Shown here: positions 7,093 to 25,000 of the stretch, piece by piece
Numbering within the stretch: the stretch's first letter is position 1
Layout: each line of letters starts with the position of its first letter
The notes under the pieces: generated by a model
Databases searched by the model: none
The model's input: only the letters and a program-made list of their open reading frames with translations
Told to the model about the DNA's origin: nothing
Translations under genes and position numbers: made by a program
Assembly (NCBI RefSeq): GCF_000337515.1
Contig: NZ_AOIQ01000006.1
Location: 192,265 to 256,264 of the forward strand
Direction: 5' to 3'
DNA from: Halovivax asiaticus JCM 14624
Lineage (GTDB): Archaea; Halobacteriota; Halobacteria; Halobacteriales; Natrialbaceae
DNA: 64,000 nt

Positions 7093-7257
7093 GGGGAGAG
7101 GCTACCTAAAGTGATGCGCACAACGTGACACCCAGTGCCGGCGACGATTGGACTGCGAGCAGCGCTGGGTTGCGAAGCCGTACACAGATCGACAGCAACC
7201 AGTTTTCGTTCAAAATCGATACGGCCACAGGTTCGGGAACCGCTGATCGACACGCTC

Positions 7258-8067
7258 TCAGAGTTCGATTCGCTCGACCAGTTGTTCGCGGTTCTCGTTA
7301 GTGTTGACCGCGACGATTCGGACGTGGTCTTCGAGCATCGACCGCTCGAGTTTGGCCTTCAGGAGGTTGTCGACCTGATAGACGCCGGCGGCGTTCGTCA
7401 TCGCGATCTCGACCATGACGGGGCTCGATTCGCCCTCGTGGAGCGAGACGCGACTGATCGCCTGGCTGGAAAGCGTGTTGATTCCGCGGCCACCCTGCTC
7501 GTACGGGATGCGCGAGCGCCCGCGTTCCATATCGAGTGCATCCGCGACCCGAATGACGCCGGCTTCGAGCGTCAACGGATCGACAGGGGTGTGGTGACAG
7601 AGGATCGCGTGCAGGACTTCACCCTTTACCCTGACGGCATCGACGGTGTCGTAGAACTCGGGGAGGATTCGATCGAGGATGTCCGAGGCGAGCGGAACGG
7701 AGTAGAACGGGTGGCGATCCCGGTGGACAACGTGCCCGACGTCGTGCAACGTAGCCGCGAGGGCGATTATCACGGCCTCATCGGCTTCGGCGAGTCCCTG
7801 CTGACGAGCCCCGTTGAAGGTCACTGAGCTGGCTTTAAGCAAATCGTACAAACACAGCGCCCGGTTACGAACGATTTCGATGTGTTTTGGTCCGTGATCG
7901 TTGTATCGCATCCGATCGACGGCGTTGACGTTCTGGGCCTCGAGAAATGTCTGAATCTCAGCGTCGTCGGCGATAAACTCGAGAATCGAGTTGACGGGCC
8001 CGTCGGGAAAGGCGTGGGCTGCGTCGGGGTCGTAGGTCCGGTACCCTTCGCTCGTCGGTTCGGTCAT
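7258..8067 (-). CDS. HD domain phosphohydrolase-like protein
   Basis: The 269-residue protein carries an HD-superfamily metal site: His in HGPKHIE near residue 60, HDVGH near residue 105, then CHHTP near 155 and a later Asp in RVADALDME. HD proteins hydrolyse phosphomonoesters or phosphodiesters of nucleotides; the substrate is not predictable. The C-terminal 80 residues (ISRVSLHEGE onward) look like a small alpha/beta regulatory domain. The ATG at 8067 is preferred because the longer frame to 8112 adds a basic stretch atypical of the family. The gene is divergent from tatA. Confidence 0.78.
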   Translation of the reverse strand: MTEPTSEGYRTYDPDAAHAFPDGPVNSILEFIADDAEIQTFLEAQNVNAVDRMRYNDHGPKHIEIVRNRALCLYDLLKASSVTFNGARQQGLAEADEAVIIALAATLHDVGHVVHRDRHPFYSVPLASDILDRILPEFYDTVDAVRVKGEVLHAILCHHTPVDPLTLEAGVIRVADALDMERGRSRIPYEQGGRGINTLSSQAISRVSLHEGESSPVMVEIAMTNAAGVYQVDNLLKAKLERSMLEDHVRIVAVNTNENREQLVERIEL

Positions 8068-9136: not shown

Positions 9137-12100
9137 ATGGCTATTGACGAGGGCGACCACGCCGGCGGGTCGGAATTTTCTGACGCTGGGCCGTCAGATT
9201 CGACCCCGGGTGGTGACGAAACGAGCGGGCCCACGAGCGGGGCCGACGTTCGTGTCGGGAACTACACGTGGGCAGATTTCATGGCGGAGTACGGGTACGA
9301 AGACGAGATCGACGCGCTGTACCCGGAAGACAAGGAAGTAAGCGGACAGCTCGGCCTCGATGCCGATGGAACGGCCGGGACCCCAACTCGCGAAGAGTGG
9401 AACACCGTCGACTTCGATCCTACGGCACACCTCGGTTTCCACCCGACAGAGCTCGACGAGCAGATTACCGAGTTGTACGCACCGAACGCGAAGTTTCTCT
9501 GGGAACGCTTTCTCGAGTACGTCGATCCCGAGACGACGCCCGTCACAAAAGACGTCTATACCTGGGAACACTACAAGTGGGAGTACTACTACGAAGACGA
9601 CGGAAGTCGACCCAGGTCGGGTGGTGAAATCGATCGGTTCGACGGCGAGCAGGCGCTCGGGTTCGATCCCGATCGGATCGAGGAACACGTCCACGCGGCC
9701 GGAAATGCCGCGATGGAACTCGACGAACTCGTCGATGAACGGACCGTCAACGTCAACGAAGAAGTAGACGAAGACGAGTTCTTCTCCACGGACAACGGCA
9801 ATACGACCGTCGCCAACCGATACGACCTGGAGAAGGCCGTTCCGTTCGAAAAGAAGACACACTTCGTCGAGACGGAGCGCTACTGGGTGAACAAACCCTA
9901 CGCGTTCGTCGTCATCTTCCACTCCGAAAAGGAAAACGAGACGAAATACTACGCCGTCGAGCCGTACTGCAACGAGATCGAGACCGAGCTGCAGGAGTTC
10001 CTCTCGGGGAAACTCAGGACGGCGATCAAGTACGCCGACGACAGCGTGAAGACCAGTACGGACGAGGAGGGTCGTCGGAGCGTCATCGAACGCGAAACCC
10101 GTCGGTTGCTGAAACGGTACGATCTGTTCGAAGGGACCCAGAACGAGACGACGATGGGGATCGTCGAAACCGTCAAACAACTGTTCGGAGACGACGAAGA
10201 CGACGAAGACGAAGCGCCACAAGCGCCCACCCAACTCGAGGGCATGTCGGTCCGGCCCGAGCCGGTTATCCTCGAAGAAGATCCCGATACCGTCTCCGAG
10301 TATCAGGTCGAAAAGCTGCTGTACCTCCTGAAACGCGACTTCATCGGCTACGAGCGGATCGACCCGATCAAACACGACATCAACGTCGAGGACATCTCGT
10401 GTGACGGGTACAATTCACCCGTCTTCGTCTACCACTCCGGCTACGAACAGATCATCTCGAACATCTATCACGGCGAGGACGACCTAGACGACTTCGTCGT
10501 CAAACTGGCTCAGCGGTCCGGAAAGGGGATCAGTAAGCGACTCCCGCAGGTCGACGCGACGCTTCCCGACGGCTCCCGAGCACAACTCACGCTCGGCAAG
10601 GAGGTCTCCGATCACGGGACGAACTACACGATCCGACAGTTCAAGGACGTCCCGTTCACGCCGATCGACCTCATCAACTGGAACACGTTCAGTTTGGACG
10701 AGATGGCCTTCCTCTGGCTCTGCATCGAGAATCACAAGAGCCTGATCTTCGCCGGTGGGACGGCATCGGGGAAGACGACGTCGCTGAACGCCGTCTCGCT
10801 GTTCATCCCGGCGAACACCAAGATCGTCTCGATCGAGGACACGCGCGAGGTCGAGTTACCGCAGCGTAACTGGATCGCGTCGATGACCCGGCCCTCGTTC
10901 GCTGACGACTCGACAGGCGACATCGACGAGTTCGACCTGCTGGAGGCCGCACTGCGTCAGCGGCCGGACTACATCGTCATGGGTGAGATCCGTGGTGAGG
11001 AGGGGCGGACGCTGTTCCAGGTCATGTCGACGGGTCACACCACCTACACCACGTTCCACGCAGACTCCGTCGACGAGGTCCTCAAACGGTTCACGACGGA
11101 CCCGATCAACGTCTCGAAGACGATGTTCACCGCGCTGGATCTCGTTTCCATCCAGACCCAAACGCGCGTGCAAGGGCGGAAGGTCCGCCGGAACAAGTCG
11201 CTCACCGAGATCAACCACTACGAGGCCGAAAACGACGAGATCAACGTCCAGGACGTCTATCAGTGGCAGGCCGAGACGGACGAGTATCTCAAGATGGGCG
11301 ATTCGAACACACTCGACGAGATCATGTTCGACCGGGGCTGGAATCACGAGAAGCTCCAGGAGGAACTCTTCAAACGGAAGACGATCCTCGCGTACCTCAT
11401 CCGGAACGGCCTCAACACGTACGCCGAAGTCGCCGCGACCGTTCAAGCGTTCATCAACGATCCGGAGACGATCCTGACGCTCATCGCCAACGGGCAGCTC
11501 GAGAACAGCCTCGACGATCTCCGCGAGATGGAGAGCGTGCTGATCGACGTCGACCCGGAGAAAGAGGAACTGGTGCCCCGGCCGGACGCCTCCTCGGAGA
11601 CGTACAACCTCTCGATGGACATCCTCGAACGGGCCGAAGAGTCACTGTTCGACGAATATCGAGGGAACGTCCCTAGCGGGCTCGCAAGTGCAATCGGAGA
11701 CGTCGAAGAGGAGACGGCCGACGACGAAACGGACGCCCTGTTCGAATTCGATGCGGCCGAAGCGAAAGACAACCAGGAAGATTTCTGGGCTTCAGACGAC
11801 GGAGAATCGGTCTCGTTCGACGAATCGGGCGGGGGTGGCGGGTCAGGAGCAACGGCGGCCGGAGGCGACACGACGGTCGAAGCGCCGGCGTGGCTCGAGG
11901 GAGAGCAACCGACCGGGACAGCGAGTGCGGACTCCGCCGTTGGAGGGCAGCGTGGGACCGACCAGCTCGAGACTACCGAACGCCCGCCGCTCGACGGCGA
12001 CGTAGGGACCATCGACGGGTCGATCACCCAAGAGGAAAGCACTGGGGAGACGACAGCAACCCCGGGACAGTCTGCCGAGGACGAGGGAACCCTCTCACTC

Positions 12101-12805
12101 GAGGAACCAACCGGCGACACTGACGGGCCGAGTGAGGGAAGTGCCGGCGATGAGGAAGAATCCGGCGGTCTCGACGCCCTCTTCACGGACATGGACGACA
12201 CACTTGCAGCGCTCGAATCCGACGAACCCGTGCCTGCGCCGGAGCAGGGACAAGACGAGGACAGTAAGCCTGATACGTCGGGGTTCGACGAGATGTTCCC
12301 GAGTTCGGACGCCGAGTCCATCTTCGCGACCGGCGAATCAACGGAAGACGAATCAGAACCCGACTGGGGACTCGGGACGCGGTCGGAATCAGTACGGAGA
12401 GACGACACGTCGCCATCTGCTGGCGAATCGGTCAATACGGCTGGTCCCGAGTCCACATCGGCAGACGAGACGAGTGGGCAGACCGATACTGACGAGGAAA
12501 CGACGTGGGTCGAAAGTGAACCACAGCCGGTAGACGACGAATCTGGCCGGGTCGACTCGCAGCCGGGATCACCTGACGATGGTGATGACTCGATCTTCGG
12601 CACCGACGACTCGTCGCCGTTTACCGACGCGGACCCTGCAAAGGAGGCCGATGCTGGCGAATCGGTATTCGACTCCGGATCGGACGACGAGGAGTCGATA
12701 TTCGCCGCGAGTGACGAACCGGAAACGACCGAGGAAGACGAGAGAACGAAGAGAGACGAGGAGGGGACGGATACCGAGCGTGACGACGGGGAGGCCGATC
12801 GATGA
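9137..12805 (+). CDS. pilB: Type II/IV secretion-type ATPase (PilB-like) with long acidic C-terminal tail
   Basis: The 1,222-residue protein contains a VirB11/PilB/ArlI-family ATPase core. The Walker A motif is GGTASGKTTSLNAV near residue 540, the Asp-box and Walker B region is DYIVMGEIRGEE near 612, and the His box STGHTTYTTFHAD follows. The first 240 residues are acidic and contain a twice-repeated tryptophan motif (Y.WADF / YTWEHY). From about residue 845 to the end the chain is low-complexity Asp/Glu/Ser/Thr/Gly, probably disordered. The enzyme is expected to power assembly of a type IV pilus or pilus-like structure at the inner face of the membrane. It overlaps the platform gene by 4 nt. 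It could instead serve a related secretion or archaellum-like machine, but the neighbours favour a pilus. Confidence 0.85.
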   Translation: MAIDEGDHAGGSEFSDAGPSDSTPGGDETSGPTSGADVRVGNYTWADFMAEYGYEDEIDALYPEDKEVSGQLGLDADGTAGTPTREEWNTVDFDPTAHLGFHPTELDEQITELYAPNAKFLWERFLEYVDPETTPVTKDVYTWEHYKWEYYYEDDGSRPRSGGEIDRFDGEQALGFDPDRIEEHVHAAGNAAMELDELVDERTVNVNEEVDEDEFFSTDNGNTTVANRYDLEKAVPFEKKTHFVETERYWVNKPYAFVVIFHSEKENETKYYAVEPYCNEIETELQEFLSGKLRTAIKYADDSVKTSTDEEGRRSVIERETRRLLKRYDLFEGTQNETTMGIVETVKQLFGDDEDDEDEAPQAPTQLEGMSVRPEPVILEEDPDTVSEYQVEKLLYLLKRDFIGYERIDPIKHDINVEDISCDGYNSPVFVYHSGYEQIISNIYHGEDDLDDFVVKLAQRSGKGISKRLPQVDATLPDGSRAQLTLGKEVSDHGTNYTIRQFKDVPFTPIDLINWNTFSLDEMAFLWLCIENHKSLIFAGGTASGKTTSLNAVSLFIPANTKIVSIEDTREVELPQRNWIASMTRPSFADDSTGDIDEFDLLEAALRQRPDYIVMGEIRGEEGRTLFQVMSTGHTTYTTFHADSVDEVLKRFTTDPINVSKTMFTALDLVSIQTQTRVQGRKVRRNKSLTEINHYEAENDEINVQDVYQWQAETDEYLKMGDSNTLDEIMFDRGWNHEKLQEELFKRKTILAYLIRNGLNTYAEVAATVQAFINDPETILTLIANGQLENSLDDLREMESVLIDVDPEKEELVPRPDASSETYNLSMDILERAEESLFDEYRGNVPSGLASAIGDVEEETADDETDALFEFDAAEAKDNQEDFWASDDGESVSFDESGGGGGSGATAAGGDTTVEAPAWLEGEQPTGTASADSAVGGQRGTDQLETTERPPLDGDVGTIDGSITQEESTGETTATPGQSAEDEGTLSLEEPTGDTDGPSEGSAGDEEESGGLDALFTDMDDTLAALESDEPVPAPEQGQDEDSKPDTSGFDEMFPSSDAESIFATGESTEDESEPDWGLGTRSESVRRDDTSPSAGESVNTAGPESTSADETSGQTDTDEETTWVESEPQPVDDESGRVDSQPGSPDDGDDSIFGTDDSSPFTDADPAKEADAGESVFDSGSDDEESIFAASDEPETTEEDERTKRDEEGTDTERDDGEADR

Positions 12806-14868
12806 GCGTCGAAGGCTCGACCGCCTCCGACGGGAAGTTCGGCGACTCCGATATGCTCGGAGATACCTTCTATCCGGTGTACGAGAGGCTCTTCAGCGAG
12901 GATAGCCAGTTCGCCTCGGACGTCGAGACGAAACTCGCCCAAGGCCGGATGACCGACACCGTCGAGATGTACCTCTCGCGAGCGATCGGCATCGGGTTTA
13001 TCAGCGGACTCTTCCTGTGGATCCTGGGTCTCCTGGTCGGCTGGGGGCTGTTCGGAACGGGGATCATCACCGTCGACACGATCATCGGTGTGCCCGTACC
13101 GAACGAGCAGGTGCTGTCGGTGTGGGAGACGATAAAAATCCCGACGTTGATCGTGGTGTGTGGGATCGTGTTCGGTTCACTCGGATTCCTCCTCGGATTC
13201 GGTTCGCTGGTCGCCGTCCCCTACTCTCGGGCATCGGCACGAAAACGCGAGATCAACATGCTCCTAACCGATGCCGTATCGTTCATGTACGCGCTGTCGG
13301 TCGGGGGCCTGAACCAACTCGAGATCCTCCAGGCGATGGCCGAGGCGGACGACACGTACGGAGAGGTCTCGAAAGAGTTCCAAAATATCGTCAACGAGAC
13401 CGAGTACTTCGATACGGATTACCGGACGGCGATCCGTAATCAGGCGATCGAAACGCCGAGTGACGAACTCTCGCAGTTCCTGACGGACATGCTCTCGATC
13501 GTCAACAGCGGCGGAGACATGAAGAGTTTCCTGCAGGACAAGAAAGAAAAGCACATGCGGACGGCCAAGCAGCAACAGGAACTCACCCTCGAAACCCTCG
13601 AGTTGTTCGGGGAGATGTACATGACGCTCTCGCTGTTCCCGCTGCTGTTGATCATCATCCTGGTGATCATGCAGATGATGCCGAACTCGAGCGCGTCGCC
13701 GAACATGATCTTCGTCGCCGTCTATGGGCTCATCCCCCTCACAGGTGTCGGGTTCATTATTCTGGTTTCGACGGTCAAACACGACGAGGTGGGTGACGGC
13801 TATCTCAGCCCCGATGGTGGGCATCAGCGGCTCGAAGCGACCCAAAACAAGGGGTTGCTCGATCTCGGACTGATCGAACAGTTCACGGGGACGCACAGTG
13901 TCTTCGATCGAATTAAAAATCGAGAAGGGACCTACGAAACGCTCGGGGTGCTGAAAGATCCACATCTCTTCTTCCGGGAGCACCCGCTGATGACACTCAC
14001 GTTGACAGTGCCGGCGGTGCTGGTGACCATCACCGCCGCGATGGTAAACGGCATCGTCCCGACGTCCTGGGGCGGGCTCGTCGACGACCCGGTCTGGGGG
14101 ACGTTCATGTACGTCTACATGCCCGTGTACGTCATACTCGTTCCACTGGCCATCTTTTACGAGTGGAATCTTCGATCCCGTAACGGAGTCGTCGCGACAC
14201 TTTCGGAAGACCTGCGAAAGCTATCGAGTGCGAACGACACCGGCCTCACGCTCTTGGAGTCTCTGCAATCGGTTTCTTCCACCACCAGTGGGACCCTCGC
14301 ACGTGAGTTCGAAGAGATGCACACGAAGGTCAACTACGGGATGAACCTGAAGGAGGCGATGATCGAGTTCAACAACAAGTATCACATCCCCCGTCTGGCC
14401 AGGTCGGTCAAGTTGATCACGAAAGCTCAAGAAGCGTCGAACCAGATTTCGAACGTTCTCAGGACCGCCGCCCGTGCGAGCGAGAACCACGACGACATCG
14501 AGCGAGATCGAAAATCACGGACCCGGATGCAGATCGTGATCATCATCATGACGTTCATGACGATGCTCGCGGTCATCGCGATCTTGCAGACACAGTTCCT
14601 GAACACGATGGCCGATCTTGGCTCGCAAAGCAACGTCGACTCCTCGGCGATGGAAGGGGCTGGCGGGAGCGGCATGTCCCAGATGAACTTGACGGAGAAC
14701 ATCGACGTCGACCAGATGGGGCTGTTGTTCTTCCACGCGATCACACTCCACGCCATCCTCTCGGGGTTCATCAGCGGCTATATCCGCGATGCGAACCTGA
14801 TGAGCGGACTGAAATACGTCGTCGGACTCTCGACGGTTGCACTCGTCGCCTGGGCATTCGTCTCGTAA
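12802..14868 (+). CDS. pilC: Type IV pilus membrane platform protein with two T2SSF domains (PilC-like)
   Basis: The 688-residue integral membrane protein carries two type II secretion F domains, at about residues 150-280 and 465-590, each preceded and followed by clusters of hydrophobic helices. This PilC/TadB/ArlJ-type protein forms the membrane platform on which the ATPase acts to polymerise pilins. A Met-rich segment near 600-630 (MSQMNLTENIDVDQMG) lies between the last helices. The start overlaps the ATPase stop (ATGA), which implies a stoichiometric partner. Five prepilin-like genes follow directly. Confidence 0.88.
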   Translation: MSVEGSTASDGKFGDSDMLGDTFYPVYERLFSEDSQFASDVETKLAQGRMTDTVEMYLSRAIGIGFISGLFLWILGLLVGWGLFGTGIITVDTIIGVPVPNEQVLSVWETIKIPTLIVVCGIVFGSLGFLLGFGSLVAVPYSRASARKREINMLLTDAVSFMYALSVGGLNQLEILQAMAEADDTYGEVSKEFQNIVNETEYFDTDYRTAIRNQAIETPSDELSQFLTDMLSIVNSGGDMKSFLQDKKEKHMRTAKQQQELTLETLELFGEMYMTLSLFPLLLIIILVIMQMMPNSSASPNMIFVAVYGLIPLTGVGFIILVSTVKHDEVGDGYLSPDGGHQRLEATQNKGLLDLGLIEQFTGTHSVFDRIKNREGTYETLGVLKDPHLFFREHPLMTLTLTVPAVLVTITAAMVNGIVPTSWGGLVDDPVWGTFMYVYMPVYVILVPLAIFYEWNLRSRNGVVATLSEDLRKLSSANDTGLTLLESLQSVSSTTSGTLAREFEEMHTKVNYGMNLKEAMIEFNNKYHIPRLARSVKLITKAQEASNQISNVLRTAARASENHDDIERDRKSRTRMQIVIIIMTFMTMLAVIAILQTQFLNTMADLGSQSNVDSSAMEGAGGSGMSQMNLTENIDVDQMGLLFFHAITLHAILSGFISGYIRDANLMSGLKYVVGLSTVALVAWAFVS

Positions 14869-14870
14869 TC

Positions 14871-15398
14871 ATGCACATCGGCCACCTTACAGACGCCGCC
14901 GACGATCGCCCCTCGACCAGCAGCGCGTCGGAGCGTGACCGCGGCCAGACCGTCCAGGACTTCGCCGTGGGGATCGGAATCTTCCTGCTCGCGATCGCGT
15001 TCGTCTTTTCGTTCGTCCCCTCGATCATCACGCCGTTCGAAGACGCCGGGGGCGCCGAAACCGCCCAGGCCGACCGTATCGCGGCGACGATCGTGGAGAA
15101 TGCGTCGACGGAGACGACGAACGAGTTGGACTGGGCGGCGTTATCGACCTACGACGGGAGCGATAGCGAGGAACTCGCAGACGAACTCGGCCTCAAAAAG
15201 ACTGGTAGTACCGCGATCACACACGTAAACATAACTCTAATCGAGATCGAGGACGTGGCAGCCGACGACCCCAAGCTCGTCCTCGCTGGTGGTGACGACT
15301 ACGACGACCAAATCGGATCGAGTGCGAGCAGGATCGTAACGACAGACGATCAGTCGCAATGTGAGACAGCTTGTAAACTCGTCGTGAGGGTGTGGTAA
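14871..15398 (+). CDS. Prepilin-like protein 1 of the pilus locus
   Basis: The 175-residue protein has a charged N-terminus followed by DRGQTVQDFAVGIGIF and a roughly 20-residue hydrophobic helix. An Arg-Gly pair directly before a hydrophobic helix is the class III signal layout cut by archaeal prepilin peptidase PibD, probably between Gly and Gln. The remainder is a soluble acidic domain with two Cys (CETACK) near the C-terminus that may form a disulfide. It begins 2 nt after the platform gene. I recall a haloarchaeal family of this kind as DUF7287 but could not check. It is probably a minor pilin or assembly factor. Confidence 0.72.
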   Translation: MHIGHLTDAADDRPSTSSASERDRGQTVQDFAVGIGIFLLAIAFVFSFVPSIITPFEDAGGAETAQADRIAATIVENASTETTNELDWAALSTYDGSDSEELADELGLKKTGSTAITHVNITLIEIEDVAADDPKLVLAGGDDYDDQIGSSASRIVTTDDQSQCETACKLVVRVW

Positions 15399-15400
15399 GG

Positions 15401-16024
15401 ATGGATCGACAATCCAACCGACGCGACGAACGCGCCCAGGCGTTTACGCTCGAGGGGCTCGTCAGCGCCATCATCGTGCTCACGGCAGTCCTCTTTGCCC
15501 TCCAGGCGGTCGTCATCACCCCAACGACGGGTGGTGCCGTCGACCGTGCGGCAATGGGACAGGACGAACAGGAGATTCGCGACGCCCTGATCGTCGCCGG
15601 TGAGAAAGGCAACCTCTCCGATCTGGTCCGATACTGGAATCCAGATTCGGGTGAATGGGAAGAAGCAAACGCTCCGGGGCCCGGCGCGTACAACAGTAGC
15701 CGGTTCGCCGAGTTGAGCGATTTCGGCACAATACTCGACCAGCACATCGTCGAAGCTGGCGGGAAATCCTACAACGTCGAATACATCGCCTACGATCCGT
15801 CGTCCGGATCGAGAACGTCCGAGCAGATAGTCAGAATGGGTGGCGGTGCCAGTGACTCGGTCGTGTCCGCAAGCTACACGGTCCTCGTCCACGAGGAGCA
15901 AAATCTCCATACCTCGAGAGCGTTCGAAGGCAACGGTGACTCTATCGAATCAACACCCGCGTATCCGTTCAAGCCCGACACGGATGCGTACACCCTCGTG
16001 GAGGTGCGTGTCACAGTATGGTAA
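15401..16024 (+). CDS. Prepilin-like protein 2 of the pilus locus
   Basis: From the ATG at 15401 (2 nt after the previous stop) the protein has 207 residues. The N-terminus reads RRDERAQAFTLEGLVSAII, where RA|QAFTLEG resembles the bacterial type IV pilin FTLIE motif, including a Glu at the fifth position after the likely cut, ahead of a single hydrophobic helix. The rest is a soluble domain with Tyr- and Ser-rich stretches and a C-terminal strand (YTLVEVRVTVW). The stop overlaps the next gene. It resembles the haloarchaeal family I recall as DUF7288. A major- or minor-pilin role cannot be separated by sequence. Confidence 0.72.
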   Translation: MDRQSNRRDERAQAFTLEGLVSAIIVLTAVLFALQAVVITPTTGGAVDRAAMGQDEQEIRDALIVAGEKGNLSDLVRYWNPDSGEWEEANAPGPGAYNSSRFAELSDFGTILDQHIVEAGGKSYNVEYIAYDPSSGSRTSEQIVRMGGGASDSVVSASYTVLVHEEQNLHTSRAFEGNGDSIESTPAYPFKPDTDAYTLVEVRVTVW

Positions 16025-16416
16025 TCGACAGACCAACCTCAGACCGCGGCCAGCTCGTGCTCATCGGCGCCATCTCGCTCGCGTTCATCCTACTCGGCGT
16101 CGTTATCGTCTTCAACAGCGTCCAGTATACGGAGACGATCGATAGCGGCGGAGCCAGTGACGACATCTCGGAGATTCGGACGATCGAATCTGAGATACAG
16201 ACGAACCTGGACACCTTGAGCGAAAATGAATCGATAAATGACGGTACGGTTGAATATTACATCAAGGAGGAATACGCACCGCAGAAGGCAGCAGAAGGGC
16301 CGATACACATCTCTTATGTCCAAAGTAGTTACGCACCTGGATCTCCAGACACATTCAAAATAAATATCACGACGACCGAGATTACCGTGACAAAAGAGAT
16401 CGAGGTGGATACATGA
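16018..16416 (+). CDS. Prepilin-like protein 3 of the pilus locus
   Basis: This short protein of 132 residues has an N-terminus reading TSDRGQLVLIGAISLAFILL, a class III signal with a likely cut after the Gly, then a single helix and an acidic soluble domain ending in a Thr/Glu-rich strand (TTTEITVTKEIEV). Codon use is visibly more AT-rich than in the flanking genes between 16200 and 16400. It overlaps the previous gene by 7 nt and the next by 4 nt, so all are likely made from one transcript. It resembles the family I recall as DUF7261; function is inferred from context only. Confidence 0.7.
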   Translation: MVIDRPTSDRGQLVLIGAISLAFILLGVVIVFNSVQYTETIDSGGASDDISEIRTIESEIQTNLDTLSENESINDGTVEYYIKEEYAPQKAAEGPIHISYVQSSYAPGSPDTFKINITTTEITVTKEIEVDT

Positions 16417-16880
16417 TGAATTTCGCCCGCGACGATCGAGGGGTCTCCATTGCGGTAACTCACGTCCTCACCGTCGGCATCACCGCAATATTGATCTCCG
16501 GGTTGTTGATCGCGGGGTCGACGCTACTCGAAACGGAGCAGGAACGGTCGACCGAGTCGACCCTCGAGACGATCGGCGAGCGCCTCGCTGGCGAGATCGC
16601 GGCCGTCGATCAAACGACAGATGGGGACGATTCGATCACGGTGACGACCAGCCATCAGCGATCCGTCGGTGGATCGGGGTACACCGTGAGTTTGACCGAC
16701 AACTGTGGGAAATATCCACTCATCGACAGTTCCCCATGTCTCGTCCTCGAAGCATCCGCGACTGAACCCGTCGCAATCCCACTCGCTCTCGAGGGCGACA
16801 TCGACACAGCAACAGTAGACGGTGGGGAAATTCAGGTGAAACGCAAATCGGGCGGCAACATCACACTGGAGGACAGCTGA
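16413..16880 (+). CDS. Prepilin-like protein 4 of the pilus locus
   Basis: The 155-residue protein begins NFARDDRGVSIAVTHVLTV, an RG|VS class III site followed by a 20-residue hydrophobic helix. A coiled-coil-like Glu-rich segment (ETEQERSTESTLETIGERL) follows, then a beta-rich domain with two Cys (DNCGKY, SSPCLV). The order helix, then amphipathic spine, then beta domain, is that of type IV pilins. It resembles the family I recall as DUF7266. It overlaps its upstream neighbour by 4 nt and its downstream neighbour by one base. Confidence 0.7.
   Translation: MMNFARDDRGVSIAVTHVLTVGITAILISGLLIAGSTLLETEQERSTESTLETIGERLAGEIAAVDQTTDGDDSITVTTSHQRSVGGSGYTVSLTDNCGKYPLIDSSPCLVLEASATEPVAIPLALEGDIDTATVDGGEIQVKRKSGGNITLEDS
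16868..16873 (+). promoter_or_regulatory. Shine-Dalgarno-like site before prepilin-like protein 5
   Basis: GGAGGA lies 6 nt before the ATG at 16880, inside the previous coding sequence. It supports that start codon and internal translation initiation in the polycistronic message. Confidence 0.5.
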
Positions 16881-17617
16881 TGAACGATCACACGTTACTC
16901 CACGACGACCGGGCCGTGAGCGAACTGGTCGGCTTCGTCATCGTCTTCGGGATCATCATCGGATCGGTCGGAATCCTGTATATGACCGGCTTCTCCGCGA
17001 TGGGAGCCGTCCAGGAGCAAGAGCAGACGAGAAACGCCGAGCGAGCGATGGACGCCCTTGCAGAGAATCTGAACGACATCGTCGAGACAGAGGGAGTCGC
17101 ATATCGCGCTGGCGAAATGAGTCTCCGGCAAGGAACACTCTCGTCGACGGATAACGAGACCACAGTTGCAGTCAAAGTTCAGAATAAAAACTGGATCAAC
17201 GCATCCGGTACACTCAATTACAAAACAGGCGATACAGAGATCGTCTACGAAGGCGGTGCAGTCGTCCGTTCGACAGAGAGCGGTGCCTGGACGATCAGAG
17301 AGCCACTGATCCGATGTACGGAGAATACAGCGATCATCTCACTGGTCCAGCTTGAGGTAGACGAAACGGCCGTGAGCTCTGCGGGGACGCGAGCAATCTC
17401 CGCAACGCACTCCGAGACGACGGTCGATAGATTCAAAGAGGATACGGTGACGATCACGGTCGACTCTCCACGCGCCGAGGCCTGGGAACGCTCACTCGCT
17501 GCCGGTGAGTGGGAACACGGAGGAGACGATGCCGACGGAAAAGTGACCTGCAATCTCGGTGGGGGAGACAATACCATAATCGTCAGAACGACGACGATGG
17601 ACCTCGATTACTCGTAA
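16880..17617 (+). CDS. Prepilin-like protein 5 of the pilus locus
   Basis: This 245-residue protein is the largest of the five. Its N-terminus LLHDDRAVSELVGFVIVF closely matches the haloarchaeal pilin consensus (DDRAVSP...), with a likely PibD cut between Ala and Val, and is followed by a long hydrophobic helix and a large extracellular beta-rich domain. The strong pilin-type signal makes it a candidate main or tip pilin of this locus. It resembles the family I recall as DUF7289. A Shine-Dalgarno-like GGAGGA precedes it. It ends the operon and is convergent with the gene at 17633-18712. Confidence 0.74.
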   Translation: MNDHTLLHDDRAVSELVGFVIVFGIIIGSVGILYMTGFSAMGAVQEQEQTRNAERAMDALAENLNDIVETEGVAYRAGEMSLRQGTLSSTDNETTVAVKVQNKNWINASGTLNYKTGDTEIVYEGGAVVRSTESGAWTIREPLIRCTENTAIISLVQLEVDETAVSSAGTRAISATHSETTVDRFKEDTVTITVDSPRAEAWERSLAAGEWEHGGDDADGKVTCNLGGGDNTIIVRTTTMDLDYS

Positions 17618-17632
17618 CCGTCGATTCTCGCG

Positions 17633-18712
17633 TTAGTTCGACCAGTCACCACGGAGCATGACGCGGAGCCCCGCTCTCGACGCAAGTGCCTCCACGCGCT
17701 GTCGTCTGTCCGCCACCGAGCCGGACGTATTGACGTAGAGACCGTTTGGGAGTTGCTCGTAGGCGTCCCACACGGCGCCATCACTGTCGACCGGTTCGTC
17801 GTGGACGACGGTCGAACCGCCGTCTGGTCCCCACGGGAGGCGGATACCAGACAGCCCACGTTCGAAGAAGTACGCCGCCGCTTCTACCAGCGCGCCCGCC
17901 GACGTCGAGTGGGCGACCGCACCGATGGATCCACGGTCGTTGAACACCCGAACAACGAACTCTCCCGTCTCGTCGGACGCCGGCAAGATGGAGTCCGGCC
18001 GATCGTGTGCTGGTCCATCGGGTTCAGCCGCCGGATCCGATTCAGACGCTGGGGATGGCGATGCAACTTGACCGCTCGATTCCATCCCTGATCCGCCCGC
18101 CGTGCCAGCGTCGTCGATAGCCGCTAACAGGGCCGGGAGCGATGCTTCGTCGACGGGCGGGCTCGATCCAAGCTCTTCCGTAAGGATGGATTCGATCGAC
18201 GATGCGATTTCTGTCCCCGAAACAGCGATCCGGCGTCGTCGCACCGACTCAGTCGGAATGTCTCGGCAATGAGTCGTGACCGCGTCGTGGGAGAGTGGTG
18301 CAAACTGGCCAGTACGAGTCGGAATCGATTCGTGATCGATCTCGACACGATCCGATCCATCTCCAGCGAACAGAACGAACCGGCGGCCGTTCGAGTACAT
18401 CGCCCGATCGATTCCCGACTGTCGCATCCCAGCGGCGATCTTGTCCTGTCGAGCAGCCGAAAGTGACTGATCGGCAGGCTCCGCCACGACGAGTACCGCC
18501 GGTGTCGACGGCGACGAACCCACGACGAGGATCGAATCGTATTCGAACTGTCCGATCGAACCCCGCCCGGTTGCTGCGTCGATATCCCATCCGAGGTGGG
18601 TCCAGAGCGGTTGGAATACCCAGGAGAGTGTCTCCCGACGTGACCGCGGTGGCGCCACCGAAAGCACTCGATCGAGGCGTGTCGCGTACCGATCTAGTGC
18701 AAACTCGCTCAT
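17633..18712 (-). CDS. Unknown protein downstream of cheR; N-terminus resembles a degenerate restriction-type nuclease fold
   Basis: The family of this 359-residue protein was not recognised. Residues 20-115 (start RSRRETLSWVFQPLWTHLGWD, then YDSILVV and VLVVAEPAD) follow the layout of the type I restriction HsdR N-terminal PD-(D/E)xK domain. The expected E-x-K is E78-P-A80, so the catalytic lysine is missing. A Ser/Pro/Asp-rich linker at about 205-245 leads to a C-terminal alpha/beta domain (FVVRVFNDRGSIGAV onward). It lies 120 nt downstream of cheR in the same orientation and may be the last cistron of the chemotaxis operon. A role in signalling is possible but unproven. Confidence 0.6.
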   Translation of the reverse strand: MSEFALDRYATRLDRVLSVAPPRSRRETLSWVFQPLWTHLGWDIDAATGRGSIGQFEYDSILVVGSSPSTPAVLVVAEPADQSLSAARQDKIAAGMRQSGIDRAMYSNGRRFVLFAGDGSDRVEIDHESIPTRTGQFAPLSHDAVTTHCRDIPTESVRRRRIAVSGTEIASSIESILTEELGSSPPVDEASLPALLAAIDDAGTAGGSGMESSGQVASPSPASESDPAAEPDGPAHDRPDSILPASDETGEFVVRVFNDRGSIGAVAHSTSAGALVEAAAYFFERGLSGIRLPWGPDGGSTVVHDEPVDSDGAVWDAYEQLPNGLYVNTSGSVADRRQRVEALASRAGLRVMLRGDWSN

Positions 18713-18832: not shown

Positions 18833-19648
18833 TCAAACGGAGTCGTCGGCAGCCAACGTGTAAATGCGCAATCGACCATCGTGAACCGCAAAGAGTGATT
18901 TCAGTTCCGGTGGGATCGTCTCCGCTTTTCCGATAACCAGGTAGCCATCCGATTGTAACGATCGACCGAGGGTTTTGAGAATCGGCGCTTTGTACGACGG
19001 ATCGATGTAGATAAACAGATTTCGACAGATTACGAGATCGAATCCGGCCTTCGGTTGGTCGTTTATCAGGTCGTGGCGTTGAAACGTGACGTTCTCTCTC
19101 GGTGTCTCCGTCACGTGAAAGGCGCCGTCACGTTGTGTGACGTACTCCTCCGGTGACTCGAGGAAGTCTAGTTGGCCCTCGATATCCGTCGTTCGGGACT
19201 GTTCGTACACACCAGCTCGAGCCGTTTCGAGTGCTGGCGGACTGATATCTGTCCCGAGTACGAAGAGGTCAGAGGCATCGATACGCGGATCCTCGTGAGC
19301 GAGCATCGAAATCGAGTACGTCTCCCGGCCGTCGGCACAGGCTGCAGACCAGACATGGATCGAACCGGGCGACTGCGAGAGCGTGACGAGAACCTCACGA
19401 ATTCCCTCCCAGACGTCCGGATTGCGGAAGAACCCAGTGACGTTGATCGAGAGTGAATCCAAGATTGCTTCCTGTTCGTCCGAATCCGCTGCGAGCAACT
19501 CGTGATAGTCGTCGTACCCGTCGCTACCGGTCCGGCGAATGCGTGAAGAAATGCGCCGATCGAGATAACTATCGTTGTAGTGACTCGTCGCAAATTCGAG
19601 TTCATCCTCGACGAACGAACAGATCGATTCGAACCCGACGTCGGTCAC
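18833..19648 (-). CDS. cheR: Chemotaxis protein methyltransferase CheR
   Basis: CheR (271 residues) methylates glutamates of methyl-accepting transducers with S-adenosylmethionine. The N-terminal helical domain (residues 1-80, RRISSRIRR) contacts the receptor. The SAM-binding domain contains SINVTGFFRNPDVW, WSAACADGRETYSI and DLVICRNLFIYID. The typical WSAGCSTGEE motif has become WSAACADGRE; the acidic SAM-ribose contacts appear retained. It overlaps cheD by 4 nt and works with CheB and CheD in adaptation. Confidence 0.93.
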   Translation of the reverse strand: MTDVGFESICSFVEDELEFATSHYNDSYLDRRISSRIRRTGSDGYDDYHELLAADSDEQEAILDSLSINVTGFFRNPDVWEGIREVLVTLSQSPGSIHVWSAACADGRETYSISMLAHEDPRIDASDLFVLGTDISPPALETARAGVYEQSRTTDIEGQLDFLESPEEYVTQRDGAFHVTETPRENVTFQRHDLINDQPKAGFDLVICRNLFIYIDPSYKAPILKTLGRSLQSDGYLVIGKAETIPPELKSLFAVHDGRLRIYTLAADDSV

Positions 19649-20157
19649 AGCTCCGTCACTCCGATATCTTCGTTACCCTTGATGAGGAGTGTACCCGTCT
19701 CTGGCGTGAATTCGACCGTTCGGCCGTGACTACCGCCGACGTCTTCGGCGACGAGCGGAACCCCGAGTTTCTCGAGTTCCTCGCGGGCTGCGTCGGCGTT
19801 TCGTTTCCCAACGCCCTCGCCGAAACTCTCGAACTGAAACATGTCGCTGCCGCCAGCAATCTTCGCCTCCACGTCCGTGTAGGTCGCCCCCCGCTCGACC
19901 ATGCGCCGGAGCAAAGCCCTGATAGCCGTGTCGACGTACTTGCCGGGTTTGAGATCACTGTTTTCGGCTGCGTCACCGTCGGGTAACATCGTGTGTGCGA
20001 GACCGCCGACTGCGGTTCCCGGATCGTACAGGGCGATTGCCAGACACGACCCCAAGCCGTAGGATTTCAGTGTATCAGTACCCTCCGAAACGACGAGTTC
20101 AGAGATGCCGACTTGTACCGATTCGGGAGCTCCGGGTTCGCTTCCGTACGTCTTCAT
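19645..20157 (-). CDS. cheD: Chemoreceptor glutamine deamidase CheD
   Basis: CheD (170 residues) deamidates receptor glutamines and, in archaea and Bacillus, works with CheC to tune CheY dephosphorylation. The catalytic Cys is C38 in YGLGSCLAIALYD, the His is H55 in LAHTMLP, and the GGSHGRTVEF motif is near the C-terminus. Length and motifs are normal for the family. It overlaps both neighbours by 4 nt (two-domain CheC upstream, CheR downstream), so the proteins are probably made in fixed ratio. Confidence 0.94.
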   Translation of the reverse strand: MKTYGSEPGAPESVQVGISELVVSEGTDTLKSYGLGSCLAIALYDPGTAVGGLAHTMLPDGDAAENSDLKPGKYVDTAIRALLRRMVERGATYTDVEAKIAGGSDMFQFESFGEGVGKRNADAAREELEKLGVPLVAEDVGGSHGRTVEFTPETGTLLIKGNEDIGVTEL

Positions 20158-21395
20158 GTTCCCTCGAGGTCGGCGAACTCGGCGGTCGTTGGCGTTTCGT
20201 CGATCCGGCTCACGTCCAGATCGTTGAGCGCGCGTTCGAGATCGGATTCGTCCGGGATCGCGTAGACGTCGCAGTCGAACGCCTGGCCGTCGGCGACGAC
20301 CGTCGTGTCGAAGACGAAGGCGTAATCCTGACTCTCACCGAGCTGAATCACGACGGGGTCGACGGCGGCCGCACCGATGTCGTGGATGAACTCCGGCGTC
20401 GAGTGATCGATCGTCGTATCGAGGACGTTCGCCCACCCGTCGAGGAAGCCACTCGCCATGATGTTGCCGAGTTCCTTGATCGCGCTCCGGTCCATCTCCG
20501 TGAACTCGTCGGATTCGTCGTCGGTCTCCATCGGAACCATCGCGTCGACGATCTCCCGGGCAGACTGTTCGTCGAACAGGAACAGCAGGTACCCACTCGG
20601 CGTCCCGTCGAATTCGAAGGCGACCCCGACGAGCGGCTCGTTCGCTACCTCCTGCGGAATCGCTTCGAGGGAGACGAAGTTGAGGCGTCTGATCTCGACG
20701 GTGGTGTCGATGCCAGTCAACGTCGTCGCCGTCTTGGCGACTTCCTCCGCGCCCTGTTCGGCCATCCGGTCGAATCCTTCGAGTTTGTCGTACTCGATAC
20801 CCTCGTTCGACCGAAGGCGTTCGAGCAAGACGGCCATCGACTCGTGTTCGGGGAAGAGGTAGTGCCGGAAGCCGGTTTCGGCGCCGACGGCTTCGATGTG
20901 GCTCTGGAAGACCAGCGCGAGGTCGTCGTCGCTCGGTGCTTCCTCCAGATCGCCGAAGAAATCCGCCGCCGTCGTCCCGCTCTGGAACTCCGGCGTGGAG
21001 ACGTCGATAGCTGTCTCCAGGACGTCTGCCCAGCCGTCGACGAACCCGTTGTTCATAATCTGGCCCAGCTCAGTCGCGGCCGATTGGCTCAGTTCGTCTC
21101 CAAGTCCAGCGTCGGAATCGCCCAGAAGCGCTTCGATGATGGTTTCTGCACTCCCCCGATCGAAGACGAGAATCGAGTGGCCGTCGATACCACCCGATAG
21201 TTCGACACGGACGCCGACGTTCTCGGTCCCGTCGTCGAAATCGTGGCGGATCTCGGTGCCCCGCATGAAGTTGAGTTTAGTAACGCCTACCTGGGTGTCC
21301 ACGCCGGTCATTTGCGTCAACCGACCCGCCGCCAGGCCCGCACCTTCCTGCGCCATTCGGTAGAAGGTGCCGAGGGCGTTTACGTCGAGTTTCAT
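20154..21395 (-). CDS. cheC: Two-domain CheC-family CheY-P phosphatase/adaptation protein
   Basis: The 413-residue protein is a tandem duplication of a CheC unit of about 200 residues. CheC/CheX/FliY phosphatases use the motif [DS]-x3-E-x2-N-x22-P. The second unit has it intact (SAIKELGN, then 22 residues, then P). In the first unit the key Asn is Gln (SAATELGQ, 22 residues, P), so that site is probably weak or dead. The protein likely removes phosphate from CheY-P and binds CheD. It overlaps the single-domain cheC upstream and cheD downstream by 4 nt each. Confidence 0.9.
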   Translation of the reverse strand: MKLDVNALGTFYRMAQEGAGLAAGRLTQMTGVDTQVGVTKLNFMRGTEIRHDFDDGTENVGVRVELSGGIDGHSILVFDRGSAETIIEALLGDSDAGLGDELSQSAATELGQIMNNGFVDGWADVLETAIDVSTPEFQSGTTAADFFGDLEEAPSDDDLALVFQSHIEAVGAETGFRHYLFPEHESMAVLLERLRSNEGIEYDKLEGFDRMAEQGAEEVAKTATTLTGIDTTVEIRRLNFVSLEAIPQEVANEPLVGVAFEFDGTPSGYLLFLFDEQSAREIVDAMVPMETDDESDEFTEMDRSAIKELGNIMASGFLDGWANVLDTTIDHSTPEFIHDIGAAAVDPVVIQLGESQDYAFVFDTTVVADGQAFDCDVYAIPDESDLERALNDLDVSRIDETPTTAEFADLEGT

Positions 21396-21997
21396 GCAGT
21401 TTGTGGTTCGATACCGTTTACCATCCCGACGAACTCTTCTAGGTCAGGGAACGCGTAGATCTCTGCTTCGATCTGATAGCTCGGAACGGACAACTCCGAA
21501 TCGAAGAACAGAGCGAGATCGTCCCCGCCCAGTCCCGCCGTCCTGACGACGATGTCACCCGCAGGGGCGTACACGAGTTGGGGGGCCGCCGTGTCGATCG
21601 CCCGGCCGAGGACGTCCGCCCAGCCGTCGATGAACCCGGAGGCCATCATGTTCCCCATCTCCTCGACGGCGCTTCTGGCCATCTTTCCGGAGACGTTTCC
21701 CATATCGTCGACCACGTCACGAAGCATCAGCGCCGTTATCTTCTTCGCACTCGCCTCCGGGAACAGGATGAGAATGTGGCCGTGTGGCTCGTCCAGTAGT
21801 CTGACGCGCACGCCAACACGTTTGCCGGCGTCCAGTTGTGACTTGATGTCGTCGACGTCGATGAAGTTCGTCTTCGTCACCTCCATTCGAGCGTCCTCGC
21901 CGGTCAGTTTGCCCATGTTGTCGGCGACACCGTTCGTCCCAACCTTCGCCATCTCGTTGATGAAGCTCAGTTTTCGAATATCGACTTTTAGCGTCAT
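21392..21997 (-). CDS. cheC: Single-domain CheC-family phosphatase
   Basis: The 201-residue CheC-family protein contains one intact phosphatase motif (SAVEEMGN, 22 residues, P). It is similar in order and spacing to each half of the neighbouring two-domain protein, so the two genes arose by duplication. Haloarchaea commonly carry several CheC paralogues. It lies 43 nt after cheA, the only real gap in the operon, and this gap carries a strong Shine-Dalgarno-like site. Confidence 0.9.
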   Translation of the reverse strand: MTLKVDIRKLSFINEMAKVGTNGVADNMGKLTGEDARMEVTKTNFIDVDDIKSQLDAGKRVGVRVRLLDEPHGHILILFPEASAKKITALMLRDVVDDMGNVSGKMARSAVEEMGNMMASGFIDGWADVLGRAIDTAAPQLVYAPAGDIVVRTAGLGGDDLALFFDSELSVPSYQIEAEIYAFPDLEEFVGMVNGIEPQTA

Positions 21998-22002
21998 TCG
22001 TT

Positions 22003-22010
22003 GATCCTCC
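22003..22010 (-). promoter_or_regulatory. Shine-Dalgarno site before cheC
   Basis: On the minus strand GGAGGATC ends 5 nt before the ATG at 21997. Most cistrons of this operon are reached by 4-nt overlaps; this one follows a 43-nt gap and would need its own ribosome binding site. Confidence 0.65.
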
Positions 22011-22040
22011 GAAATCGGTCTGCGTGCCAGTTTTTCATTG

Positions 22041-25000
22041 TTACAGGGTACTCACGTCGAGGATAGTAATAACTTCCCCCCGACCGCGGACGGTCGCCCC
22101 GCTGATACCCGGAACGTTGCGCATGAATCCTTCGAACGGCGTGATCACGACCTCACGACGAGTGCGAACGACGTCACACTTGAGTGCGACCGGACGCACG
22201 TCGTCACGAACCCGGACGAGCATCCCGTCTGTGTCACCCGACCGGGCTGCATCCACCTCGAGCGCCGACGAGAGGTCGACGACCGGGAGGGACTCCTCAC
22301 CATCCTCGTGGACGAGTTCGCCGTCGGACTCGACGACGTCCGCACCGTCGACCACGTCCCTGACGACGTCGACGGGGATGCCGAACTGCTCGCCATCGCT
22401 CTCGACGAACAACACGTCGTCCACGGCGACACTCACCGGGAGGGTCATCGTGACCGTCGTGCCGTCGCCCGGCTCACTGTGGACCGATACCGTTCCGTTC
22501 AGTTCGTCGACGGTGCGGCGAACGACGTCCATCCCGACGCCGCGACCGCTGACGTCGGTGACCTGCTCTTTGGTGGACAGTCCCGAGTTGAAGACCAGGT
22601 CGTACGCCTCTTCGTCCGACAACTCCTCAGCTTCTGCTCGCGTGAGGATGTCCGCATCGACGGCCTCCTCCCGAAGTCGATCGGCGTCGAGGCCGGATCC
22701 GTCGTCTGCGATGTCGATCGTGACCCGGTTCTGTGTCCGGTTCGCACTGAGTTGGATCGTTCCTTCGGGATCCTTCCCGGCAGCCTTCCGTGATTCGACG
22801 GACTCGATGCCGTGATCGACGGCGTTTCTGACCAGATGGATGAGCGGATCACCGATCCGATCGAGGACACCACGATCCAGTTCGACGTCGGCGTTCGACT
22901 GATCGAACGTCACCTGTTTGTCCTGTTCACGGGCCAGGTCACGAACCACGCGCGGCAGCCGGTTCGTCACCGTCTGGAGCGGGACGAGTCGCACGTCCAT
23001 CACGGTCTCTTGCAATTCTGTCGTGAAGTCTTCCAGATCGTCGAGTTCCCGCTCCAGTGTTTCGTACGGTTCCCGCGAATCGATCGCCGATCGGAGTCGC
23101 ACCCGTGACGTAACGAGCCCCTCGACGAGTTGCAAGAGCGAGTCGACCTGGTCTCGTTCGACGCGAACCGACTGGGAGTGCGCCTCGAGTTCGGTGTCGG
23201 TGTCCGGTGACGCTTCGGTGGGAACGGAGATATCCGGGACCGCCATCTCCGGAAGGCCAGCTAGCACCTCGTCTTCTGGGTCGTCACCAGCGTCGAAATC
23301 CGTCCCGCTCGTGTCGATCTCGTCCGCCTCGGTCTGGAACGACGCCGATTCATCGCCCTCCGAGTCGAAGGCCGACTCGCTTTCCGCCTGAGAACCAGCA
23401 CCGAACTCGTCGGCTGGCGTGGCATCGAGTCCGAAATCGTCGGAATCGAGGTCGAGGTCGGCATCGAACGCCGAGCCACTCGTCGCGTCGGTCGACTCGA
23501 CGTCGCTACTCGTATCGGATGCGACAGCGTCGATATCGTCAGCGAACGCCGTATCGTCGGAGTCGTCCGTAAACGAGATCTCATCGTCGAGATCACTATC
23601 GAACGCATCGTCGGACCCAAACTCGGTATCCTCGGAGGGTTCGTCATCGGTTTCGAGTCCGGAGAGGTCGACGGTCGACTCGTCGTCTGACCCAAAGCCG
23701 ACGGACGACGGTTCGTCGTCGATCGCGTCACCGAACCCGTCGTCAGGTTCGACGCCCGATTCGGTGTCACCGAACTCTCCATCGGACTCGACACCCGATT
23801 CGACGTCACCGAACTCGTCAGGTGATTCGCCGTCCGATTCGACGTCGTCTGCGTCGGACGACGCGGGTTCGGACACCATGTCGGACTCGTCGGAGGCTGA
23901 ATCGAACGGTGCGTCGTCGAAGCCGAGTGCCTCCGAGTCGTCCTCGGCAGTATTCTCGGTCGATTCAGCGAACGAATCCGCCAGCCCGTGATCGTCGTCC
24001 GCCGTATCAACGTCGTCGGCCGACACAGCCGACTCACGGTCTTCGGCCGATTCGTCGGCTGGATCTTCATCCTCGTCCACGAGCGGTTCGGTCAACCACT
24101 CGGCCCGCGAATCGACGTCGTCAGCCGACGCCGGATCTGCAGTAGCGTCGGTCTCTGCAGCGACCGTCTCCGATGGGCCAGACTGGTCCGACCCCGGTGA
24201 CGTGTCGCCGTCCCAGGTGGCCGCCATATCGGCCGACGAATCGGCGGTTATCTCGTCCGAATCCTCGTTCTGGGTCAGTTCGTCGAGACCTGTCGAGAGG
24301 TCGAACGCAGGCGGGTCACCGTCAGTCGACTGATCGTCGCTGTCAGCCGTTGCCTCAGCTGTGTCGGGAAGTGGGTCAGCCGAGGGCTCCGCGGTGTCAG
24401 TGAGTGCGTCGGCATCGCCCTCCAGTTCGTCAGGCGAGTTCGACGCGGAAATCGGCTCGTCCTCGTCTTGCTCGCTATCGGCGGCATCCACCGGGGCCTC
24501 CGTCTCCGCATCGGCAGACGAAGGACTGGTCGGATCGGCCGCCTCGTCGGCTATGGGGCCAGGGGCTGAAGAGAACTCGTCACCGTGCCCGACGTCAGTT
24601 CCTTCCTCGGGTGTGGGTTCGGACCCAGGGATACCTGACTCGGCGTCATCGTCGGCCGAGTGCTCGTCGTCCGACACCGACTCGGCTGTGACGGTTGCAG
24701 CCGGTTCGTCGGCCGACTCGGTACCGTCGTCAGGCCCTCCTTTGATCTCGTCGGCCGAGCCGGCGGACTCGTCGATCGAATCCATCTCGGCGTCGGCCTG
24801 CGCGGGTTCGTCATCGACGGCCAACGGGTCGTCGTCGGCCGATCCCGGCTCGTCGTCACCGTCGATCGGTTCTGGTGTCGGATCTGGCGACCGCGCCGTG
24901 TAACCGTCACCCTCTTCCGCGACTGCATCCGCATCATCCACCTCGGCAGCCGGGCCAGTGTCGTCGGCCAGGTCGATCGCGGTCGGTGACAAGTCAGCGT

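Follow-up and report, generated by a model that had tools for sequence, protein, structure and literature searches.

A block of five consecutive small genes in Halovivax asiaticus JCM 14624, of the family Natrialbaceae (which includes Natronorubrum and Natrinema), very probably encodes the pilins of a type IV pilus of the PilB4-C4 kind. The block occupies positions 14871 to 17617 of the plus strand in the stretch analysed here, a window of 64,000 nucleotides on contig 6 (NZ_AOIQ01000006.1, positions 192,265 to 256,264) of the 3.24 Mb genome. An assembly ATPase gene and a platform protein gene lie directly upstream, and the seven genes form a nearly gapless run that begins at position 9137 (Table 1). 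In this run, each gene overlaps the next by 1-7 bases or lies 2 bases from it. The five genes are read as PilB4-C4 pilins because their five class III signals are conserved, their order is kept, and the extensions of the ATPase agree with the description of PilB4. We assign a probability of roughly 0.8 to the whole explanation, which includes the division of labour among the pilins discussed below. The locus belongs to an already recognised pilus type; the new elements are the parts list, the gene order after PilC, the spread, and the long relatives that bear VWA domains.

Class III signals

A first-pass annotation of this stretch had reported five consecutive prepilin-like open reading frames (ORFs), and all five ORFs and all five quoted motifs were present. 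Each of the five proteins has a class III signal followed by an uncharged helix, as is typical of type IV pilins. Related loci came from a scan of a single public genome collection in which an aligned set of platform proteins served as query; of the 291 loci confirmed, the best 80 were kept, chosen by PilC and not by their pilins. Signals were counted in same-strand homologues at these loci whose profile match started at position 8 or earlier, and where several Arg/Lys-Gly/Ala pairs stood near the start, the pair with the least charged following stretch was taken. The pair was found at positions -2/-1 in 78/78 homologues of gene 1, 77/78 of gene 2, 75/75 of gene 3, 75/76 of gene 4, and 71/72 of gene 5; the three homologues without it have Ser at -1. 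Residues +7 to +22 were free of Asp, Glu, Lys, and Arg in all 376 homologues with the motif. Because the pair is kept in nearly all homologues, the five signals are, as judged from sequence, more than chance occurrences.

Beyond the shared pair, each gene has its own signature. Gene 1 homologues carry Gln+1 and Asp+5 in 78/78 cases, and gene 2 homologues carry Gln+1 and Glu+6 in 77/77 (cut after Arg-Gly/Ala), with Tyr (35), His (33), or Phe (9) at +3. Gln+1 is likewise constant in gene 3 (75/75), where +3 and +5 are hydrophobic; the window member (RG/QLVLIG, the slash marking the predicted cut) has no acidic residue close to the site. Gene 4 homologues have Val+1 in 54/75, and the residues listed for their positions +3, +5, and +6 include no acidic one; gene 5 homologues have Glu or Asp at +3 in 61/71.

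The likeness of gene 2 to bacterial FTLIE-type pilins, proposed earlier, is not supported by this comparison. In mature FTLIE-type pilins the motif has Phe+1 and Glu+5, whereas the constant Glu of gene 2 lies at +6, and Phe+3 occurs in only 9 of the 77 homologues. No bacterial pilin family appeared among the 25 families listed, of 28 in all, for 62 gene 2 members, and none was seen among the Foldseek and VIA-align rows shown for gene 2. An acidic residue at +5 of mature pilins is noted in the relevant passage of a review (PMC4371748). A bacterial origin of gene 2 was therefore dropped, given the Glu at +6 rather than +5, the lack of a match to a bacterial pilin family, and the lack of a confident structure match. 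The Q-x-x-x-D-F start of gene 1 recalls TadE; that candidate was also dropped, since no TadE family match was found in 39 members at E up to 1, and gene 1 differs in this from the minor pilins TadE/TadF of Tad (T4cP) systems.

The same annotation held that the five proteins share little beyond the signal, which is true in part. Genes 4 and 5 look related, because DUF7289 is matched by 23 of 31 DUF7266 members (E up to 1; the best match has 1.8e-4). A weak similarity also links genes 1 and 2 (hhalign E 3e-4, probability 39%). The expectation that automatic annotation would leave the genes without a function was borne out: Pfam assigns DUFs only, and NCBIfam names none of the five, its one irrelevant match (E 0.085) lying far below the cut-off. 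The numbers DUF7287, DUF7288, DUF7261, DUF7266, and DUF7289 had no occurrence in the literature searched.

Gene order at related loci

Five of the 80 PilC loci ended too soon after PilC and were set aside. The other 75 extend 3.6 kb or more beyond PilC; for the genes found, they keep the order PilC-1-2-3-4-5 without exception, and 72 of them have all five genes. With the motor genes directly upstream, this constancy supports the proposal that the five belong to one pilus system. Gene 5 was not detected in one draft locus (L123), and two of the 72 five-gene loci contain a short ORF (gene 5 of 95 aa in L098; gene 4 of 72 aa in L149). A second, non-random set consists of 40 hand-picked loci of the class, most of them selected because DUF7288 and DUF7289 are near each other.

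The mature length of gene 3 is two-peaked, with 110-163 aa in 20 of 111 homologues and 251 aa or more in 91, some genomes being in both sets and thus counted twice; the window member (121 aa) is of the short form. Behind gene 5, the 75 loci contain a convergent long DUF7289 gene in 26 cases, a homologue of the window's convergent downstream gene in 30, neither in 15, and no room for either in 4. The loci with the downstream homologue are ones that we take to be Natrialbaceae. One genome, which we infer to belong to the Haloarculaceae, has two pilin sets: one (L184) is complete with PilB and PilC, and the other (L185) has neither in the 14 kb read and is accompanied by two long DUF7289 genes. 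The pilin block can therefore be copied and moved as a unit.

Motor proteins and the type of the pilus

The window platform protein shares 53-89% identity with 13 aligned relatives, and a PilB match was found in 78 of the 80 loci around related PilC genes. The window ATPase matched Pfam PilB3_C only marginally (E 4e-6, 27.3 bits against a cut-off of 27). Its match to the NCBIfam archaellum-motor model (E 2e-118) was below the cut-off (396 of 550 bits) and covered residues 255-773 only. Another contig of the genome carries a gene pair that matches PilB3_C strongly.

These features agree with published accounts of PilB4. In the sections of Makarova et al. (2016, PMC4858521) devoted to it, the PilB4 locus is set apart as a type of its own: it encodes its own pilins, and its ATPase in halobacteria has additional domains at the ends. 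By description, the window resembles the PilB4-C4 locus of Haloferax volcanii (HVO_1160 ATPase; clade 2 in Figure 4B of that paper, in the portion consulted) in the end extensions of the ATPase, the TadC-like partner, and the pilins encoded within the locus. Other Haloferax loci (L127, L130, L132-L134, L140, L151) have the same genes in the same order, some ORFs overlapping or being extended, and their PilB ORFs are 1097-1184 aa long except in L133 (682 aa). The window lineage differs from them in its short gene 3 and in the replacement of the long DUF7289 neighbour by an unrelated convergent gene, behind which the window has chemotaxis genes. The PilB3-C3/PilA adhesion pilus has an ATPase and a platform protein of homologous families, the window ATPase matching PilB3_C as marginally as given above; it differs in that the Haloferax PilB3-C3 locus encodes no pilins, according to the part of PMC4858521 that covers it, and none of the five window proteins is of the PF07790 type.

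Pohlschroder and Esquivel (2015) state in the passage concerned that pilB4 and pilC4 are expressed (PMC4371748), the pertinent text of the Archaeal Proteome Project lists PilB4 only in GMM-grown cells (PMC7305310), and an excerpt on Haloferax gibbonsii reports pilB4-C4 as turned down during infection by virus HFTV1 (PMC12542753). Denise et al. (2019), in the portion relevant here, grouped two haloarchaeal adhesion pili as a 'Halo pilus' sister to the archaellum, with minor pilins outside their trees.

The earlier description of the set as a full pilus goes too far. In the Pfam scan, none of the five pilins matched PF07790 (Pilin_N, PilA-type) above its curated cut-off; the six PF07790 matches of the genome all lie outside the pilus operon. 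The genome has one Peptidase_A24 gene above the cut-off, also away from the operon (other peptidase families were not searched).

The number of parts invites comparison with two bacterial machines. Five pilins, one ATPase, and one platform protein are the core make-up of type II secretion, as set out in the relevant section of PMC10191384, and the operon has no PF07790 pilin; the genes might thus build a short pseudopilus for export in place of a long surface pilus. We regard this as unlikely, as the operon shows no sign of a cargo or export gene, and the Haloferax PilB1-C1 and PilB3-C3 pairs have been placed in adhesion (PMC6491452). Adding one prepilin peptidase, the count equals the eight parts of the bacterial Com pilus listed in the same section of PMC10191384, and a DNA-uptake filament would be the corresponding reading. 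It is more improbable still: an equal count is no homology, and no competence gene was seen at the locus.

Predicted structures

Structure prediction, which the first-pass annotation had named as a check for pilin beta domains, covered genes 2 and 5. The gene 5 model (pLDDT 91.6, pTM 0.82) has a helix of 60 residues (10-69) followed by 13 strands and one short helix. The gene 2 model (pLDDT 85.6, pTM 0.71) has helices at 12-41 and 46-71, three shorter helices, and four strands. Both predicted models fit the general pilin plan, with the helix first and the sheet behind. This plan is read from the structural elements alone, because no library match was significant: profile searches of solved structures with genes 1, 2, and 5 gave a best E of 0.08, and the fold searches described in the next section were negative. 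Resemblances of gene 2 to ribosomal-protein and sensor-domain structures were rejected as chance (Z below 6). Archaellum proteins were absent from the fold-search rows shown for genes 2 and 5, an absence that does not prove that the folds differ.

Observations that weigh against the assignment

Several results count against the assignment to PilB4-C4 pilins. Gene 3 was not detected in two of the 75 PilC loci (L128 and L157, in Halobacterium bonnevillei and Halospeciosus flavus) and was found in only 35 of the 40 hand-picked loci, being undetected in 5. In six of these 40 loci (L046, L047, L049, L054, L067, L068), a pilin set stood without PilB or PilC detected in the region, so that the pilins need not use a neighbouring motor. 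From the literature come the suggestion, in the corresponding part of an earlier review, of a PilB4 pilus made of two relatively large pilins (PMC4371748), a make-up unlike the one that we propose, and the finding that PilB3-C3 could replace PilB1-C1 in Haloferax (PMC6491452). Finally, Foldseek returned no solved structure at E 0.001 or better for either model (best 0.56 for gene 2; best 1.6e-3, a non-pilin, for gene 5). VIA-align gave Z of at most 5.6 for gene 2, with unrelated proteins, and at most 2.8 for gene 5, both within chance, although the top row for gene 5 was a chain of a modelled Xcp pseudopilus.

Proposed division of labour among the five pilins

Under the assignment to PilB4-C4 pilins, the precursors would be inserted through Sec with the N-terminus inside, and a prepilin peptidase would cut each of them immediately ahead of its hydrophobic helix. 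Assembly into one fibre would then fall to the PilB4 ATPase, working on the PilC4 platform. Gene 4 (DUF7266) appears to be the best candidate for the main subunit because of a faint PilA likeness: 8 of 31 DUF7266 members, though not that of the window, weakly match PF07790, which models the N-terminus of PilA (best E 3.8e-4). Genes 1, 2, 3, and 5 would be minor pilins that start or cap the fibre, and they may present a longer DUF7289 pilin with a binding domain; the role would be adhesive. A tip complex with such a division of labour is a tentative proposal, to which we give slightly under even odds.

Another possible arrangement is the layout that Makarova et al. (2016) put forward for this locus, with the five pilins as structural subunits distributed through a single heteropolymeric pilus that has no dedicated tip complex. 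The joint encoding of the five genes and their conserved order are consistent with it. However, the five proteins differ in size and in the acidic position near the cut (Asp+5, Glu+6, none, none, Glu/Asp+3), which suggests unequal roles, and gene 3 can be lost or halved. The PilB4 model in that publication, as given in the portion on pilins, has one PilA-related major pilin (arCOG03926) and one beta-rich, often duplicated minor pilin of ~250-550 aa, and leaves other roles open (PMC4858521).

A division of labour of the kind proposed here has bacterial counterparts. Sections of PMC10191384 describe filaments whose minor pilins form a tip complex capped by a subunit without Glu5, and the tip complexes PilHIJK and PilABC of Streptococcus sanguinis resemble our set in that several unequal minor pilins are made together (excerpts of PMC8179133 and PMC10191384). 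The archaeal set differs from these complexes in that it shows no sequence or confident fold match to them, and its long pilins use a DUF7289 carrier.

Long DUF7289 pilins with VWA domains

Three tandem DUF7289 proteins of 501, 806, and 878 aa are encoded on another contig of the same genome, C21 (L181, 5336-12484). Each of the three has a class III-like signal, in one case with Ser at -1, and neither PilB nor PilC was recognised beside them in the 19 kb read. In two of them a VWA domain lies towards the C-terminus (E 7e-19 and 4e-17), and these two also hold a DRSGS motif; two contain DUF7305. Ten further proteins were scanned, nine of which are long DUF7289 proteins from other genomes; their extra domains were DUF7308 (2), DUF7305 (4), CARDB (2), and VWA (1). 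Two adhesin-like DUF7289 proteins with CARDB repeats, one of 1295 aa (L048, 6740-10627) and one of 1260 aa (L067, 4862-8644), lie beside pilin sets.

VWA domains are rare in long DUF7289 pilins, because a VWA profile built from three proteins matched only 5 of 86 long DUF7289 ORFs, a set in which a genome can occur more than once: the three sources and proteins of Haloferax elongans and Haloferax mucosum. All five hold the sequence DRSGS or DESGS, and D-x-S-x-S is the pattern of VWA metal sites. In the 878-aa protein and in that of L074 this motif precedes the Pfam-aligned stretch, and its place in the fold is uncertain. The VWA protein is a neighbour of the five-pilin set in three genomes (L074, L140, L151).

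VWA-bearing long DUF7289 pilins resemble the bacterial modular pilins in which a VWA domain is grafted on a pilin, described in part of PMC8179133; one of the modular pilins of Streptococcus sanguinis has such a domain (excerpts of PMC8179133 and PMC10191384). The word 'archaea' is absent from the main text of the former paper, and the vWA proteins named in the available portion of PMC4858521 are regulators and the bacterial pilus part TadG. Among the literature matches listed, VWA-bearing archaeal pilins were not described in titles or abstract openings, which does not show that none exist.

Distribution in the class and the phylum

Three samples were searched: 116 genomes drawn evenly from the class, 294 from the phylum, and 14 named control genomes. 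In the class, DUF7289 was present in 113/116 genomes and DUF7288 in 111/116, 110 of them above the cut-off. The archaellum-motor model exceeded its 550-bit NCBIfam cut-off in 92/116 genomes; at E 0.001 it matched all 116, because PilB proteins are homologous to the archaellum motor. As a side observation, two genomes of one genus (G044 and G072) have a PilB-type ATPase match and no DUF7288, and G072 also has no DUF7289; in these, the pilins were possibly lost and the motor kept. Of the controls, one (Haloferax volcanii) has DUF7287 and DUF7288, and two (this species and Methanosarcina acetivorans) have DUF7289.

In the phylum sample, DUF7287 was found in 193/294 genomes (178 above the cut-off), many of the weaker matches spanning only the N-terminal third of the profile, and the gene 2 model matched in 165/294 at E 0.001. 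Sixteen regions outside the class were picked for matches to genes 1 and 2, of which four (L167, L178, L179, L180) were cut by contig ends and 12 were used. From the make-up of the phylum, we would guess that these genomes are mostly methanogens. Genes 1, 2, 3, and 5 occur in order in 12/12 regions (weakest gene 3 match, E 2e-4), and the block is followed in 12/12 by a same-strand long DUF7289 gene (422-589 aa), a sixth pilin. Gene 4 was matched by its own profile in 9/12; of the other slots, that of L169 holds an ORF assigned to the DUF7289 profile, that of L177 an ORF that matches no profile and shows a class III pattern, while L172 yielded nothing at this place.

One possibility, which we put forward with some reserve, is that the six-pilin module DUF7287-7288-7261-7266-7289 plus long DUF7289 is ancient in the phylum and is the archaeal counterpart of the tip complex that minor pilins form in bacteria. 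On this reading the long DUF7289 proteins would act as modular pilins whose exchanged C-terminal part (VWA, CARDB, DUF7305, DUF7308) changes what the tip binds, and the present genome would encode its tip proteins at a separate place, on C21.

Surroundings of the operon

The features of the locus are collected in Table 1. Eleven of the 40 hand-picked loci have, upstream of PilB, a homologue of the gene at 7135-7827 (+, 230 aa, no Pfam match); a further locus has one at a different place. The chemotaxis cluster includes a CheA of 1587 aa, in which ~980 residues separate the P2 and dimerisation matches. A link of this cluster to the pilus was set aside: CheR lies downstream in 8 of the 40 loci, all of the window's family, and most regions end a few kb downstream, so that absence elsewhere is not shown.

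Table 1. Coordinates of the pilus operon and the genes that follow it in the window
Feature	Position	Strand	Length (aa)	Sequence features
PilB4-type assembly ATPase	9137..12805	+	1222	Pfam T2SSE E 1e-30; T2SSE core 465-684, with long extensions at both ends
PilC4/TadC-type platform membrane protein	12802..14868	+	688	Pfam T2SSF E 4.4e-30; two T2SSF stretches
Pilin gene 1, DUF7287	14871..15398	+	175	Pfam E 2.3e-42; class III site G25/Q26 (RG/QTVQDF), Asp +5
Pilin gene 2, DUF7288	15392..16024	+	210	Pfam E 1.4e-46; site A15/Q16 (RA/QAFTLEG), Glu +6; numbered from GTG start
Pilin gene 3, DUF7261, short form	16018..16416	+	132	Pfam E 1e-6, only profile positions 2-55 of 169; site G11/Q12
Pilin gene 4, DUF7266	16413..16880	+	155	Pfam E 2.5e-15; site G10/V11 (RG/VSIAVT)
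Pilin gene 5, DUF7289	16880..17617	+	245	Pfam E 3e-74; site A12/V13 (RA/VSELVG), Glu +3
Downstream gene, convergent with pilin operon	17633-18712	-	359	No Pfam match at E 0.01
Chemotaxis cluster: CheR, CheD, two CheC/CheX, CheA, CheB	18833-28015	-		Directly behind pilus operon

Biological meaning

We know of no job assigned to the haloarchaeal PilB4-C4 pilus. It probably serves something basic, because DUF7288 exceeds its cut-off in 110/116 class genomes against 92/116 for the archaellum motor. The constancy of the gene order and the long pilins with VWA domains provide concrete genes to delete and proteins to localise.

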